A stretch of DNA of 64,000 nucleotides from Alloprevotella sp. oral taxon 473 str. F0040 (GTDB lineage: Bacteria; Bacteroidota; Bacteroidia; Bacteroidales; Bacteroidaceae), in contig NZ_KB290717.1 in the NCBI RefSeq assembly GCF_000318095.2, positions 10,011 through 74,010 of the forward strand, in the 5' to 3' direction. The notes under the pieces were generated by a model. It ran no database searches, was not told the DNA's origin, and worked only from the letters and a program-made list of their open reading frames with translations. Positions 3,551 to 37,975 of the stretch are shown here, in pieces. The translations under genes were made by a program, and so were the position numbers. The number at the start of each line of letters is the position of its first letter. Within the stretch, counting starts at the first letter, position 1.

Positions 3551-3799
3551 TTTCAGTTCTATCGTGGGATGGAAAAAAGCAAGTGGCAATGTAATGGGGA
3601 GTAAATATTCTTGAAATCGAATTCAGTGTTAGGAAAACTTTACATATTTATCTCCGCTAATTAACACGCAAAAGAAGTGAGCTTGAGGACTAATGGTAAA
3701 TATCCCCCTTCTTAGAGCACTAGATATAGAAGATGTGTAGAGAATTTCGTTACAAAAGTGGCTTTTATAGCCATTATTTTAAGAGAATAGGCGAGAATT

Positions 3800-3905
3800 C
3801 TCCAATCTATCAGGTGATTATCTCCTAGTTGTTTTGAAAAATCTCCCACGTTACTTGAGAAAACTCCGAGATAATGAGCATGAAATCCCTAATGAAGCTA
3901 AGTTA
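3800..3905. repeat. 21-base-phased intergenic repeat array, copy A
   Basis: CTCC-type motifs start at 3822, 3843 and 3864 with exact 21-base steps. A decayed unit (ATCCCTA) follows in phase at 3885 and another CTCCAAT lies 22 bases upstream at 3800. The best unit reads ACTCCGAGA. The array sits in a gene-free region (3431-4085) otherwise holding only the nanA terminator, and matches the arrays at 25517 and 37871. Confidence 0.6.
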
Positions 3906-4085
3906 AGTCTAACAAAACAGAGAAAAGACTCAAAATGTCGCAAACTTTATTTCTAGTTGAGCGAAAACTCTAACGATTAAAGAATTACTCTTTTAACTCA
4001 TTGTACTTTGTATTATCGTAAATGTTTTCACAGTTTGGCTAGAACAGGAAAGTTTCGAGCATAGTTGGTCACTATAATCGGCATT

Positions 4086-11202: not shown

Positions 11203-11240
11203 AAAACTCCTAGCTTCCGATGAAGAATGCTAGGAGTTTT
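11203..11240. terminator. Bidirectional terminator between the efflux operon and lrgAB
   Basis: Twelve-base-pair stem AAAACTCCTAGC/GCTAGGAGTTTT with a 14-base loop. The A and T ends suit both strands, stopping the efflux operon (plus) and lrgAB (minus). Confidence 0.75.
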
Positions 11241-11347
11241 AGGGTGAAATGGCCCAGTGTTGTTCTGGGCTCTCAAGGGCTTTGGAGATTTGCTCTGAGA
11301 GCCGAGTGATAGTGTGGGTGAAATGGAATGGTGGCCACCTTGTGGGG

Positions 11348-24807: not shown

Positions 24808-25425
24808 ATGACGATTCTCGTTCTACACAATAACTATTCTTTTTCTGCGTTATCAGAGCAAAGCGTTTCCAGCTCCGAGTCGCCAGCAATGACATACTAC
24901 ACATTGCCTGAAACAGCGTTGCAGCGTAATGGTAAACCTGTTTTTTTGCCAGATTATGCCAATCCTGCACAGTTAGAAGTGCATTTGGCAGTGCGCATTT
25001 GTCGTTTGGGACGTCATATTTCAGCGCGATTTGCTTCACGTTATTATGATGCCGCAACGGTGATGCCTCATTTTATAGCACCAGCTTTGTGGGAAAAGAC
25101 TCAAAAACTTGGATTACCTTGGGATGCCGCTTTAGGCTTTGACAATGCCACTCCTTTGGGAGAGTTTGTAGAAATAGCCCCTTCCACTGTATCTCAACTA
25201 GACTTCAGTTTGCGCGTGGATGGTAAAGAACAGATGTCAGGCAGCACTACGCAATGGTTGCACCATGTAGACAATGTAATTGCCGAGGTGAGCCAATATT
25301 TTACACTACGCCGTGGTGACATCTTATTGATGGGTACACCCACTGCTCCCATTTTCATCACACCCGACCACAAAGTTGAAACTTATCTAGGTGAAACTCG
25401 TGTGCTTTCTTTTAATGTGAAGTAG
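24808..25425 (+). CDS. Divergent FAH-fold hydrolase/isomerase-like protein
   Basis: 205 residues colinear with the short fumarylacetoacetate hydrolase family of Bacteroidetes: NGKPVFLPDY, LAVRICRLGRHISARFASRYYDA, LGFDNATPLGEFV, LRRGDILLMGTP. Family members bind Mg or Mn through an ExE pair and an Asp. Here the pair reads Glu57-Val-His59, the Asp that usually follows the RYYDA helix (IDFTAR) is replaced (PHFIAP), and the N-terminal NYxxH motif reads HNNYSFSAL. The metal site is therefore changed and the activity doubtful; an altered enzyme or a non-catalytic relative are both possible. Confidence 0.65.
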   Translation: MTILVLHNNYSFSALSEQSVSSSESPAMTYYTLPETALQRNGKPVFLPDYANPAQLEVHLAVRICRLGRHISARFASRYYDAATVMPHFIAPALWEKTQKLGLPWDAALGFDNATPLGEFVEIAPSTVSQLDFSLRVDGKEQMSGSTTQWLHHVDNVIAEVSQYFTLRRGDILLMGTPTAPIFITPDHKVETYLGETRVLSFNVK

Positions 25426-25516: not shown

Positions 25517-25643
25517 ACTCCGAGAACTTTAAGAATATCTCCGATATTTTCTAGAAAAACTCCGAGAACTTTTGATAAATCTCCGAGATTTTCTTTCAAC
25601 TCTCTGAGATTTTCTTTTAACTCTCCCAGATATTATGATGAAA
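25517..25643. repeat. 21-base-phased intergenic repeat array, copy B (six units)
   Basis: CTCCGAG-type motifs begin at 25518, 25539, 25560, 25581, 25602 and 25623, six units with exactly 21 bases between starts. With flanks the motif is the odd palindrome TCTCCGAGA (units read ACTCCGAGA, TCTCCGATA, ACTCCGAGA, TCTCCGAGA, TCTCTGAGA, TCTCCCAGA). The 12 bases between motifs are A/T-rich and poorly conserved. The array ends 71 bases before the porU start. Confidence 0.8.
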
Positions 25644-25714: not shown

Positions 25715-28700
25715 ATGATTCATCCGTCTCTTCTTTGGACATTCCTCGCTTTTGCGCCTCTTTCTCTGATGGCTCAGCGCGAATTTGTGCATATCTCCAC
25801 TGCAGACTACGTAGTGAGCGACAGTTTGCCGCTCTTTACACAAGAATTGGCAGTGGAGCAAGGAAATCTGCATCATGAAGTCGCCTTGATTTATCCAGAG
25901 TATGCCCCTCTGTCTTCGGAAGAGCGCAAGTGGGTGAAAAAGATGGAGCAAGAGCTGGGGCGAGTGTCGCAGCCAAAGTTGGAAGTCGCGACTGCAGTAG
26001 AACAAAAACGCAAATGCCTCGTTGTAACTTTCGTGCCATTTGTCTATAGAGAAGGGAAGTGGCTACGCATCACTTCTTGTCAGCTCAAAGTGATAAACCA
26101 ACCAAAAGTTGTCAATAAGGATAATAACGCTGACTCTTCACGGACACGCCTCCTAAGCCATGGAGTTTCATCTCAACCTGTAGAAAGAGGTATTTTAGTT
26201 CATTCAGCATTCACTTCTTCTACTTCCACTGCTGCAGATTTGCGTTGGGCGAAATCTTCCCTGTTAAAACAAGGGCGATGGGTGAAGATTCGGGTGGCTC
26301 GCGAAGGCATTTACAATCTTTCTACCGACTTTTTGCGTAAGGCTGGTTTCGCTCAAGTAGATCGGGTGAAAGTCTTTGGATATGGTGGCTTGATGCAGGA
26401 CGAGAAGCTTCTTTTTGATGTAGAAAGCGATGCTGTGCAGTCCCAACGAGTGCCAGACGATCTTGTGGAAGTGCCAACTTTGCGTGAAGGAGAACAGTTG
26501 CTCTTTTGGGCAGAAGGTACGCAACGTCGAACGTATGACAAGACGGCTGGGAAGTGGTCGCACGAGAATAATTACTATTCACGCTTTAGCTACTATTTTC
26601 TTACTGAAGGTGACACACCCCTCCGTGTTTCTTCTTTAGCAGCTGTTGAAGAGGCCGCAACGACAGAATTGGATCGTGTGCCTTTCGCTGCCATCTGGGA
26701 TGAAGATGAGGCCGGATTGTACCAAGGTGGACGGCGCATGTTTGATGGACACGATTTTGCTACGCACAATCAGCTGGCATTTAACGTCAATGTTCCCGAT
26801 TTAGCTGAAGATGCTGGAGAGCTTCCCGTAGAAGTTTCTTTTGCAGCAGCATCTTCCACTTCATCTACCACAGCTGACATACAGTTGAACGGGAAACGAC
26901 TGGGACAGCTCTCAGCCTCATCATTCAATACACTTACTTCGAGTGCAACACTTGACACGAAGACTTTCCGACAGCGCATCCAAGTTGGCAGTAATGCTTT
27001 TGTGGTGAATACCACTGCGGGCAATAGTGCTCGAATGGATTTTGTCAGAATCTCTTATCCTCGACTGTTGAAAGTCGACGGCAATCCTTATAGTTTTTCC
27101 CCTCAATCCACAGGGGTGACTACACTCTCTGTGCAGTCTGCCATTTCTTCCACGAAATTATGGAGAATTGGGCAGATGGGGAGTCCCACAGTCGAAGTTC
27201 CGCGTAGTAGTTTTGCCGATGGACGTGCCACGTTTACTACTGATACCCCCAATCGTCGCTTTGTTGCTTTTAATAGCTCAGCTCGCTTTCCTATCCCTCA
27301 GTTGGTAGGTGAAATTGCGAACCAGAATCTTCATGCAGACACTGGAATAGACTACGTCATCATCGTACCTTCAAGTGGAAAACTCATTCAACAGGCGGAA
27401 CGACTTGCAGCTATGCATCGGCAACATAGTGGATTGACAGTAAAAGTGGTGCGTGCTGATCAACTATATAATGAGTTCTCTTCTGGCACTCCTGATGCCA
27501 ATGCCTATCGTCGCTATTTGAAGATGCTCTACGACCGAGCGGATGATACTACTCCCGCACCTCGATATGTTTTGCTCATGGGTAAGAGTCCATGGGATAA
27601 TAGATTCTTGACAGATGACTGGAAGCGCGAGAACCCAGATGATTATTTGTTGGCTTACGAACAGGATGCATCTAACTATAATCTTGGCACTGTCAATAGC
27701 TATATCACAGATGATTTCTATGCACTCTTAGACGATGGAGAAGGAGAAACCATTGAGCGTGAGAAGCCCGACCTTGCCACAGGCCGCATGATAGCAATTA
27801 CTTCCGAACAAGCTAAAGTTTTGGTAGATAAAGTCGAACGCTATCTAACGAATGTTGATGCTGGCGAATGGAAAAATAATGTGGTGATGCTTGGAGATGA
27901 TGGTGATGCTAACGAACACATGGAAGATGCTGAGCGGGTGTCGAAGGAGTATGTGTCAGGTTCTAATGATCGTCTGAATCTTTCAAAGATTTATTGGGAT
28001 CGCTACAATCGAGAGGCTAGTGCCATCGGATTCACCTATCCTATGGTACGCCAACAAGCTCTTCGTCGCATGGAAGAAGGTGCTGTTATCTTCAATTATA
28101 GTGGCCATGGTGCTCCATTTCAAGTGTCGCACGAAGCTGCTTTACGTCTAGAAGATTTCAAAAAATCATATAACAATCGTCAGACTCTATGGGTGCTAGC
28201 CTCTTGTGAAATCTATCCCTTCGATAGTAAGGAAGATAATATAGCAGAAGAGTTTCTCCATCAGCCTAACGGCGGTAGTATAGGTTTCATGTGTGCTACA
28301 AGAGCGGTGTATGCCACGCAGAATAATGCCCTTAATCGTCGATTTGCCTACTATGTGGTGGGGCGAGATGATGCTGGAAATCGTATAACAATGGGAGAAG
28401 CATTGCGTAAGGCAAAGAATGACTTGCTCTCTCCCGCAGGAAAGAGTTATAGAGATGTTGATAACTCCATCAATAAACTCAAATATCTCTACTTCGGAGA
28501 CCCAGCTTTAGTGCTATCTATCCCCACGGGAAGTGTGGTCATTGATAGTATCAATGGAAAAGCGGTAACTTCCTCGATGAAAGTTCAACTTGAAGCCGGA
28601 AGTGTCGCAAGATTTAGTGGGCATATAACGAAGAGTCAGCAAAATGCAGGGGCTTTGGATGAGAGTTTCTCTGGAGTTCTTTCCGCTTCGATTTATGACC

Positions 28701-29629
28701 GCTTGGAGACCATCGTATGTAAGGACAATGATGGTAGTGCTGCGCGTCGGAATCGTCAGCCTCTCAAGTTTAGTGAAAGAGGGCTTGCTGTGTTTAAAGG
28801 TACTGCCCGAGTGGAACAAGGGAAGTTTAGTATCTCAGCTGTCGTGCCTCGAAACATCAGTTACAGCACGGATGCTGCTCGCTTGAGTCTTTATGCGGTG
28901 AGCGATGATAAAAAGACGGAATGCAATGGAGTTAATGAGCAGTTTAATCTCAATGGAACAGCCAATTCTGCTGCACCCGATACACTCGCACCCAAAGTTG
29001 TGGCTTACTTGAACCAAGTGGGACAAGTTGATTATGCCATTGTTGGAAAAAATGCTACATTGGTAGCTGATATATCTGATGATTCAGGCATTAATGCAAG
29101 CCAAGGTTATCTTGGACACGACATGGAGTTGACATTAGACAATGAAGCTCCTGTTAGTGTCAATGAGCATTTCACTTTTTCTCTAGGGAGCTATAACCGT
29201 GGTCAGATAGTCTATCCTCTCATGAACCTCTCACCTGGACTGCACACGCTTAAACTTCGTGTGTGGGATGTCAATGATAATGTCACTACCACTATGATGC
29301 GCTTCATTGTTTCTGCTAATCAGCTTACAGAAACGACTTTGACAACGACTGAAAATCCGGCTCAGGTAGCTACTACCTTCGTTGCCAATTTCCCCACTTC
29401 AGATAAAGAAGGAGAACTCTTCCTTGAAGTGGCTGATGCTAGCGGACAGAAGGTCTACACTCACCGGCAATCTCTAGCAGCAGGACAGGGTAGTTGGTCG
29501 CAGTCTTGGGGGCTACGTAATAGTGCTGGTGCTCCGCTTTCTGCAGGCCTTTATATTTGTCGACTACAAGTGCACTATGCCGATGGTAGAAAGTCCACTG
29601 CTACTTATAAACTCGTTGTAGTGGAATAA
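25715..29629 (+). CDS. porU: Type IX secretion system sortase PorU
   Basis: Cell-surface cysteine protease of the gingipain family (C25) that removes the C-terminal signal of T9SS cargo and joins the cargo to A-LPS. 1304 residues from 25715, where a signal peptide starts (MIHPSLLWTFLAFAPLSLMA); an earlier ATG at 25661 would bury it. A long beta-rich N-terminal region (to about 530) precedes the caspase-like domain, with LMGKSPWDNRF, SYITDDFYALLDDG, the catalytic His798 in YSGHGAPF and Cys831 in LASCEIYPF, 33 residues apart. The last 80 residues resemble a T9SS C-terminal domain (GELFLEV, SAGLYICRLQV, KLVVVE). porV follows. Confidence 0.9.
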   Translation: MIHPSLLWTFLAFAPLSLMAQREFVHISTADYVVSDSLPLFTQELAVEQGNLHHEVALIYPEYAPLSSEERKWVKKMEQELGRVSQPKLEVATAVEQKRKCLVVTFVPFVYREGKWLRITSCQLKVINQPKVVNKDNNADSSRTRLLSHGVSSQPVERGILVHSAFTSSTSTAADLRWAKSSLLKQGRWVKIRVAREGIYNLSTDFLRKAGFAQVDRVKVFGYGGLMQDEKLLFDVESDAVQSQRVPDDLVEVPTLREGEQLLFWAEGTQRRTYDKTAGKWSHENNYYSRFSYYFLTEGDTPLRVSSLAAVEEAATTELDRVPFAAIWDEDEAGLYQGGRRMFDGHDFATHNQLAFNVNVPDLAEDAGELPVEVSFAAASSTSSTTADIQLNGKRLGQLSASSFNTLTSSATLDTKTFRQRIQVGSNAFVVNTTAGNSARMDFVRISYPRLLKVDGNPYSFSPQSTGVTTLSVQSAISSTKLWRIGQMGSPTVEVPRSSFADGRATFTTDTPNRRFVAFNSSARFPIPQLVGEIANQNLHADTGIDYVIIVPSSGKLIQQAERLAAMHRQHSGLTVKVVRADQLYNEFSSGTPDANAYRRYLKMLYDRADDTTPAPRYVLLMGKSPWDNRFLTDDWKRENPDDYLLAYEQDASNYNLGTVNSYITDDFYALLDDGEGETIEREKPDLATGRMIAITSEQAKVLVDKVERYLTNVDAGEWKNNVVMLGDDGDANEHMEDAERVSKEYVSGSNDRLNLSKIYWDRYNREASAIGFTYPMVRQQALRRMEEGAVIFNYSGHGAPFQVSHEAALRLEDFKKSYNNRQTLWVLASCEIYPFDSKEDNIAEEFLHQPNGGSIGFMCATRAVYATQNNALNRRFAYYVVGRDDAGNRITMGEALRKAKNDLLSPAGKSYRDVDNSINKLKYLYFGDPALVLSIPTGSVVIDSINGKAVTSSMKVQLEAGSVARFSGHITKSQQNAGALDESFSGVLSASIYDRLETIVCKDNDGSAARRNRQPLKFSERGLAVFKGTARVEQGKFSISAVVPRNISYSTDAARLSLYAVSDDKKTECNGVNEQFNLNGTANSAAPDTLAPKVVAYLNQVGQVDYAIVGKNATLVADISDDSGINASQGYLGHDMELTLDNEAPVSVNEHFTFSLGSYNRGQIVYPLMNLSPGLHTLKLRVWDVNDNVTTTMMRFIVSANQLTETTLTTTENPAQVATTFVANFPTSDKEGELFLEVADASGQKVYTHRQSLAAGQGSWSQSWGLRNSAGAPLSAGLYICRLQVHYADGRKSTATYKLVVVE

Positions 29630-37870: not shown

Positions 37871-37975
37871 ATCGCATCAGAATGAAATTATGTCGGAGAT
37901 TTTGCGAAAAACTTCCCACAAAATCAATATTATGTCGGACGTTTTAGGGCTAAAACTCCGACAAAACTATGAAAA
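37871..37975. repeat. 21-base-phased intergenic repeat array, copy C, with hairpin
   Basis: TGTCGGA occurs at 37891 and 37933, 42 bases (two steps of 21) apart. Weaker units lie in phase at 37871 (ATCGCAT) and 37913 (TTCCCAC), and CTCCGACA, the reverse complement of TGTCGGAG, begins at 37956. The part 37933-37963 folds into a hairpin: GTCGGA-C-GTTTTA pairs with TAAAACTCCGAC, only one C unpaired, loop GGGC. Confidence 0.55.

Follow-up and report, generated by a model that had tools for sequence, protein, structure and literature searches.

A family of arrays phased at 21 bp, dispersed in Alloprevotella and represented by six cores upstream of porU

Does a row of six short near-palindromes, repeated at an exact 21-bp period upstream of the sortase gene porU, serve that gene, or does it belong to something larger? 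We addressed this question in a window of 64,000 nucleotides (the whole stretch of DNA analysed) from Alloprevotella sp. oral taxon 473 str. F0040, hereafter the source genome, and in further stretches of that genome, a close relative and other genomes of the genus and family.

The array upstream of porU

The array occupies positions 25517–25630 of the window, in the gap between the stop codon of a gene of the FAA-hydrolase family (24808–25425, forward strand) at 25425 and the ATG of porU (25715–29629, forward strand) at 25715. Pfam matches to the predicted ORFs confirm PorU (Peptidase_C25), PorV and the upstream FAA-hydrolase; porV comes after porU. The six cores found by motif search read ACTCCGAGA (25517–25525), TCTCCGATA (25538–25546), ACTCCGAGA again (25559–25567), TCTCCGAGA (25580–25588), TCTCTGAGA (25601–25609) and TCTCCCAGA (25622–25630). 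The fifth has no strand assigned; the others, and the array as a whole, are assigned to the reverse strand, the array being C-centred on the forward strand and G-centred when read on the reverse. All five steps measure exactly 21 bp, as the initial annotation had it, and the distance of 71 bases that it gave from the end of the array at 25643 to the porU ATG also holds. It placed the motif TCTC(C/T)GAGA correctly, but the exact form is too strict: TCTCNGAGA fits only two of the six cores exactly, the remaining four having one mismatch. The proposed palindrome is likewise a near-symmetry rather than a full one, since cores of the source genome, when oriented by their centre base, have one looser arm.

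Single motifs resembling TCTCNGAGA with at most one mismatch number 36 in the window against 29.4 expected, which is no excess; the signal is therefore the regular spacing. Tandem Repeats Finder detects the array with periods of 21 and 42, and a scan of periods 13–40 over the window ranked it top, at lag 21 with an identity of 0.73. The window holds two degenerate arrays of four cores each, one at 3799–3871 in a convergent gap (reverse strand; spacings 22, 21 and 21; score 45.3) and one at 37891–37963 (no strand assigned; spacings 21, 21 and 22; score 41.2). A three-core match at 11206–11258 (no strand assigned; spacings 23 and 21) is doubtful, its score of 15.4 lying barely above the cut-off of 14.

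The array had been held to be neither a CRISPR nor a terminator nor a coding repeat. We rejected a CRISPR because only about 9 of every 21 bp are conserved, the spacers consist of A/T tracts and near-identical repeats longer than 20 bp are absent. A terminator was rejected because no terminator-like site occurs at the array, which has no GC-rich stem followed by a run of T; an Rfam search at the array returned no RNA match. The third exclusion stands for most arrays, which are intergenic, but not for a minority within coding sequence.

A dispersed family with a constant period

The array upstream of porU is one of at least 80 in the source genome, in agreement with the option of a dispersed repeat raised in the initial annotation. 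A loose core pair, searched on both strands of the whole genome, gave 38 matches against 1 for the reversed pattern. Among 25 exact core pairs obtained with a free gap of 0–30, 23 have a spacing of 21 bp and the other two of 22 bp; the reversed pattern gave none. Thirty-six arrays, against none in shuffled DNA, came out of an initial scan of 47 stretches and served to train a periodic weight matrix. Applied to 77 stretches (586 kb or 23% of the genome, picked for candidates, so that no density can be derived), this matrix recovered 80 arrays comprising 440 units, and none in a block-shuffled control, which places the counts above those of shuffled sequence. Core pairs at 21 ± 1 bp had also been proposed for comparison between intergenic and coding DNA genome-wide: in the source-genome stretches, 172 strong cores with such a partner are intergenic and 14 lie within genes, a 46-fold higher density between genes.

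Of 360 steps returned by the array finder, which permits only 20–23 and 41–43 bp, 291 measure 21 bp and 56 measure 22; five are of 42, five of 43, two of 23 and one of 20 bp. When no step limit was imposed, 497 strong cores formed 369 pairs 9–135 bp apart, 230 of them separated by an exact multiple of 21, 57 by one base more and 82 by some other distance. Unit number is narrow as well: arrays hold three to eight units, mostly five or six, and none of the 131 arrays in the source genome (mean 5.50, variance 0.95) and the close relative described below (mean 5.27, variance 1.41) exceeds eight.

The unit approximates AAAA-n-TCTC(S)GAGA-n-TTTT, a TCNGA core with A/T tracts on either side. Its four fixed letters (T, C, G and A) are 84–98% conserved in the source arrays and carry 1.1–1.8 bits, compared with 0.06–0.1 bit in the nearly random middle of the spacer. 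Neighbouring C- or G-centred cores point in the same direction in 90 of 125 cases. A weak extra TCnGA is found about one helix turn from the core, at +10/+11 in the source genome (31 observed, 17.7 expected) and at +11 only in the relative (26 observed, 16.8 expected). The first set of source arrays contains 22 steps of 22 bp, 17 of which open or close their array; by eye, many of those at array ends read GTTG...TAAAA, possibly a boundary unit. Identity is 0.589 between adjacent units and 0.557 between units taken from different arrays (0.632 and 0.591 in the relative), and this near-equality speaks against recent slippage.

Shared places and a shifted core in a close relative

The relative, Prevotellaceae bacterium Marseille-P2826, has a PorU that is 81% identical to the source PorU in the best segment. 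It contains 51 arrays in 51 stretches, with none in a block-shuffled control, and has kept the period, 200 of 218 steps measuring 21 bp and 11 measuring 22. Loss of the 21-base period in close relatives, against which the initial annotation had set its reading, is thus not seen here. The core, in contrast, is shifted: the consensus is approximately AAAAA(C/T)(G/C)TCGGA(G/C)ATTTT, and cores often read CGTCGGAGA, whereas those of the source genome mostly read TCTC.

When compared with the 80 source arrays, 31 of the 51 arrays occupy the orthologous place of a source array, which is what remained of 32 initial pairs once L211/L171 proved not to be the same place. Neighbouring genes match on both sides at 28 of these 31 places and on one side at three. 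Thirteen further source sites checked in the relative showed an array in six cases, a two-core remnant in three and neither in four; of the 13, three (L220, L213 and the one at 11206 in the window) could be placed by a single flank only. At the place of the degenerate array at 3799–3871, an array of the relative adjoins the orthologous left-hand genes, the right side being without a match. The ortholog is the best-scoring array of the relative in 11 of the 32 compared pairs and not in 21, although in 17 of those 21 at least one flank still outscores every non-ortholog flank; these scores are no measure of relative rates, since all arrays follow one consensus and are shorter than their flanks. 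Alignment gaps amount to 5.75 per 100 columns inside arrays and 5.35 outside, figures obtained with gap costs too loose for indels, and the alignment was used for unit numbers and spacings alone.

We found no clean empty site or target duplication at RsmF or at the four intergenic candidates L140, L122, L123 and L117, where the gaps have diverged. At L140 (approximately 3995–4040) and at L319, a perfect terminator-like hairpin of about 40 nt containing two cores is identical in the two genomes; at L140 it corresponds to the first two array cores, and the rest of the array exists in the source genome only.

Genomic context and arrays within genes

Genes were called with a purpose-written script, which defines the following gap classes. 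Among the 80 source arrays, 42 lie in codirectional gaps, 16 in convergent and 15 in divergent gaps, six overlap ORFs and one lies at an edge; the corresponding numbers for the 51 arrays of the relative are 27, 12, 7, 4 and 1. Convergent gaps are mildly enriched (28 of 119 array gaps against 19 of 168 other gaps of at least 150 bases, p 0.009; p 0.035 and 0.20 when the genomes are taken apart). Relative to codirectional genes, the G-centred strand tends to be the antisense one, in 24 of 33 decided cases in the source genome (24:9, p 0.014) and 19 of 26 in the relative (19:7, p 0.029), two counts that are not independent because many arrays are common to both. In smaller initial sets the ratios were 11:2 and 7:0. 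Skews of the 6-kb stretches of the relative are ambiguous, and replication direction is inseparable from gene direction as a cause of the orientation.

A minority of arrays lie in frame within genes, where the 21-bp unit encodes heptads such as SESFAKKSD: they occur in a GSCFA protein, an MBL-fold protein, a periplasmic-binding protein and RsmF. The RsmF linker measures 171 nt with the array in the source genome and 66 nt without it in the relative, and the difference of 105 nt equals five 21-bp steps; the remaining linker has diverged between the two genomes, so that this is not a clean empty site. At the source loci L107, L127, L141, L211 and L225, in-frame heptads rich in Ser, Glu and either Lys or Asn occupy linker-like places, the ORF carrying the L225 array having no Pfam match. 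The array at L114, which includes one 22-bp step, merely overlaps a start codon that was probably mis-chosen.

Symmetry of whole arrays

Within single spacers, mirror positions pair no more than in shuffled sequence overall (total z −4.4), on which ground we rejected hairpins within single spacers; despite this deficit, individual positions lie above shuffling, namely spacer 2/19 and core ±5 in the relative and core ±8 in the source genome. Taken as a whole, arrays show slight self-complementarity around their centre. Folding z-scores on the two strands are −2.98 and −3.02 for the window array, −2.03 and −2.21 for L104 and −4.42 and −5.29 for L131, and the mean z against dinucleotide shuffles is −3.35 for the first 40 of the 80 source arrays. 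Arrays folded no less well after their spacers had been exchanged for those of others (z −0.24, se 0.19). When spacers were permuted within arrays, the observed complementarity of mirror-related spacers exceeded the permuted value in the source genome (0.507 against 0.484, p 0.009) and in the relative (0.600 against 0.583, p 0.064). For the middle spacer, complementarity was 0.605 against 0.487 in the relative (p 0.003) and 0.496 against 0.478 in the source genome (p 0.235), while spacers outside the middle fall short of random pairs in self-complementarity (0.457 against 0.493; 0.506 against 0.577). A score for the fold-back register was 0.209 against 0.185 (sd 0.013) and 0.402 against 0.354 (sd 0.020). 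In view of the symmetry revealed by the permutation test, we kept folding of the whole array among the rival explanations, raised its weight and lowered that of a protein-site reading.

Distribution and dialects in other species

Our model R1 matches at least 17 of 58 genomes of the genus, the source included, and at least 15 of 399 genomes of the family, seven of the 15 lying in the genus; R1 misses shifted cores, and since at most 93 candidates per genome were scored in the genus and 13 in the family, these counts are lower bounds. Of the eight genomes outside the genus, the seven other than G386 were inspected: lag 21 was top at the sites in G421, G282 and G192 and not at those in G140, G134, G148 and G204. 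Lag 21 was likewise not the top lag at L303, L304, L305, L307, L318, L151 and L154. At 40 places from eight genomes it was the strongest of lags 15–29 in 39; a 21-bp model or pattern had served to select these places, so that their period provides no independent support.

The core differs by species while the spacing stays at 21 (Marseille-P2826, G009, G040, G023, G056 and G006), reading TATGTCSGACATA in G023 and CTACCTCAGAGGTAG in G009, for example. Among the matches listed, R1 found nothing in G006, G056 and G057, two matches in G004 and one in G009, a genome in which 31 of 32 listed core pairs lie at 21 bp (both strands counted). We scanned 80 kb of each of these five genomes of the genus without specifying a core, setting aside 23 coding hits. 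Intergenic arrays of the form GTTTGG..AGCAAAC accounted for three of four hits in G056 (L345, L346), arrays of CAATAAGG/CCTTATTG for all six in G006 (L352–L354) and the species' own core for six of eight in G009; the remaining hits in G009 (two of eight) and G056 (one of four) lacked the species core, and the 80 kb of G004 and of G057 gave no intergenic hit. The initial proposal of a period kept constant while the spacer drifts therefore extends from the source genome and its close relative to further species with other cores. It looks as if 21-bp arrays are common, not universal, with the core as a species dialect.

Some hits at lag 21 are or may be coding heptads; that at L317 (G421) is in frame by eye. 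A GC-rich 21-bp tandem repeat of CACGGGGCTAAGGCGTGTTCA lies near rsmF at L295 (approximately 2575–2745, G041) and is possibly coding. Repeats of the CTCTGAGAA type at multiples of 9 bp in G012, G013 and G023 are probably coding and unrelated to the arrays.

Weighing the explanations

The reading that we favour, with a probability of about 0.46, is that the arrays are sites phased at two helix turns for a putative DNA-binding protein whose target changes between species. A phase that stays constant as the spacer drifts, places common to two species and a core that is exchanged all fit protein sites on one face of the helix, and the spacing kept between species while the motif changes suggests a candidate protein that reads DNA geometry. 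Such a homodimeric or oligomeric protein would occupy one face of the DNA cooperatively, so that the spacing would be under selection and the spacer free to drift; its target would change between lineages and the arrays would follow. Its role would probably be chromosomal, in nucleoid or replication organization or local topology, rather than in control of a single gene such as porU. Counted against these protein sites are the arrays that overlap ORFs and the patchy distribution, which fit a spreading repeat equally well; the self-complementarity, superfluous in a simple row of sites; the convergent excess and orientation bias, which this reading does not predict; the few single positions that pair above shuffling; and the 21 of 32 pairs in which the ortholog is not the best-scoring array. 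A more far-reaching version is tentative, and we would bet against it: geometry-defined chromosomal arrays in the genus, and perhaps in sister genera, with two-turn phase, weak one-turn sites and a core replaced in each species would imply a rapidly re-targeted putative protein polymerising on one DNA face, perhaps a new chromosome-organising system.

The arrays within genes and the patchiness of the family make a selfish or mobilised repeat of the REP/RPE type a serious rival, if on balance an unlikely one. A transposase or other enzyme would copy the units, which would be tolerated between genes and in protein linkers, each lineage having its own family. The in-frame arrays, the RsmF linker that differs by five 21-bp steps and the incomplete coverage of genus and family, overstated to the extent that R1 misses shifted cores, all favour copying, as does the frequent CGTCGGAGA of the relative, given that CGTC-tagged REPs are known, Bacteroidetes included (PMC3733652, in the parts considered here). 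It is opposed by the 31 of 51 arrays at places common to two species and the six of 13 further sites that hold one, by the want of a clean empty site or target duplication in the cases examined, by single units without stem-loop covariation and by a strict head-to-tail 21-bp phasing that is not described for REPs in those parts of PMC3733652. We regard as improbable, though deserving weight, that the array acts by folding back, its RNA or extruded DNA forming a long interrupted hairpin about the middle that affects transcription, RNA stability or DNA structure. The negative folding z-scores, the complementarity of mirror-related spacers and of the middle spacer in the relative, the register score in both comparisons, the orientation bias and convergent excess, and the perfect hairpin of L140 in the relative speak for it, but the effect is small, spacers from other arrays fold equally well and non-middle spacers fall below random pairs. 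Moreover, 22 of the 119 intergenic arrays lie between divergent genes, the window array has neither terminator-like site nor Rfam match, and the exact 21 is left unexplained. We rejected a neutral minisatellite made regular by slippage as very improbable: the unit length is constant and adjacent units are slightly more alike, but that difference in identity is slight, units being nearly as different within as between arrays, conservation is position-specific and no array exceeds eight units. Hardly credible, finally, is an operator array controlling porU specifically, as the initial annotation had considered on the strength of the 71 bases. porU is one neighbour among many, with arrays at unrelated genes, in all gap types and within some genes, and the nearest relative has just three cores, irregularly spaced at 22 and 20, ahead of porU; control specific to porU is thus unsupported, and we rejected it. 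The porU gaps of two Alloprevotella genomes, inspected by eye, contain no array and, being a few dozen bases long, are little informative.

If a protein reads the arrays, each genome offers dozens of natural sites along its chromosome, strict in helical geometry and differing in dialect between species, and both selection on DNA phase and co-change of protein and site become directly testable. If they are REP-like, they represent a head-to-tail form not described in the parts of the literature compared and a source of in-frame protein insertions. On either reading, they would be useful markers for annotation and strain typing.

Comparison with known systems

Plasmid iterons are direct repeats of a protein site at intervals of about two helix turns, confined to one origin beside a rep gene, as opposed to the dozens of chromosomal arrays found here. 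Rickettsia palindromic elements are short palindromic repeats, some of them in frame inside genes, as is a minority of our arrays; we know of no 21-bp phased arrays among them. A search of the open-licence literature, by titles and the starts of abstracts, yielded no paper describing arrays phased at 21 bp in either Alloprevotella or Prevotella.

REP/BIME elements are short palindromic repeats tagged GTAG or CGTC, the CGTC type occurring also in Bacteroidetes, and apparently without a RAYT transposase; in the parts of the source considered, which mention Rickettsia palindromic elements as well, REPs are described as tagged stem-loops with stems of 8–9 bp (CGTC) or 5–13 bp (GTAG), mostly arranged as head-to-head dimers (PMC3733652). 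The arrays resemble them, so far as that account goes, in being short, palindromic, intergenic and of high copy number, in forming lineage-specific families with some members in genes, and in lying mostly between unidirectional and convergent genes. They differ in having 4-bp arms around one centre base and a head-to-tail arrangement at 21 bp, and they lack the paired arms of 5–13 bp with a loop that characterise a REP stem-loop, the mirror positions of core and spacer showing no overall covariation within single units.

PINSR of Prevotella intermedia, present between genes in 177 copies in one strain and 184 in another, is lineage-specific, has about three quarters of its places in common and is without terminal inverted repeats; it is described as a single 188-bp sequence whose internal period is not stated in the portion of the source used, and our comparison is with its description only (PMC4755523). 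BrickBuilt of Porphyromonas gingivalis has a 23-nt unit with the consensus AGAYCATARTATCCTCTCRTRTG, 18 full repeats in BrickBuilt_5, a leader, a tail and terminal inverted repeats, as far as the excerpted source describes it (PMC4596501). On that description it shares with the arrays a dispersed intergenic tandem repeat, a similar unit length and a Bacteroidales host; the arrays have a 21-bp unit and a different consensus, and we therefore rejected BrickBuilt as their identity.
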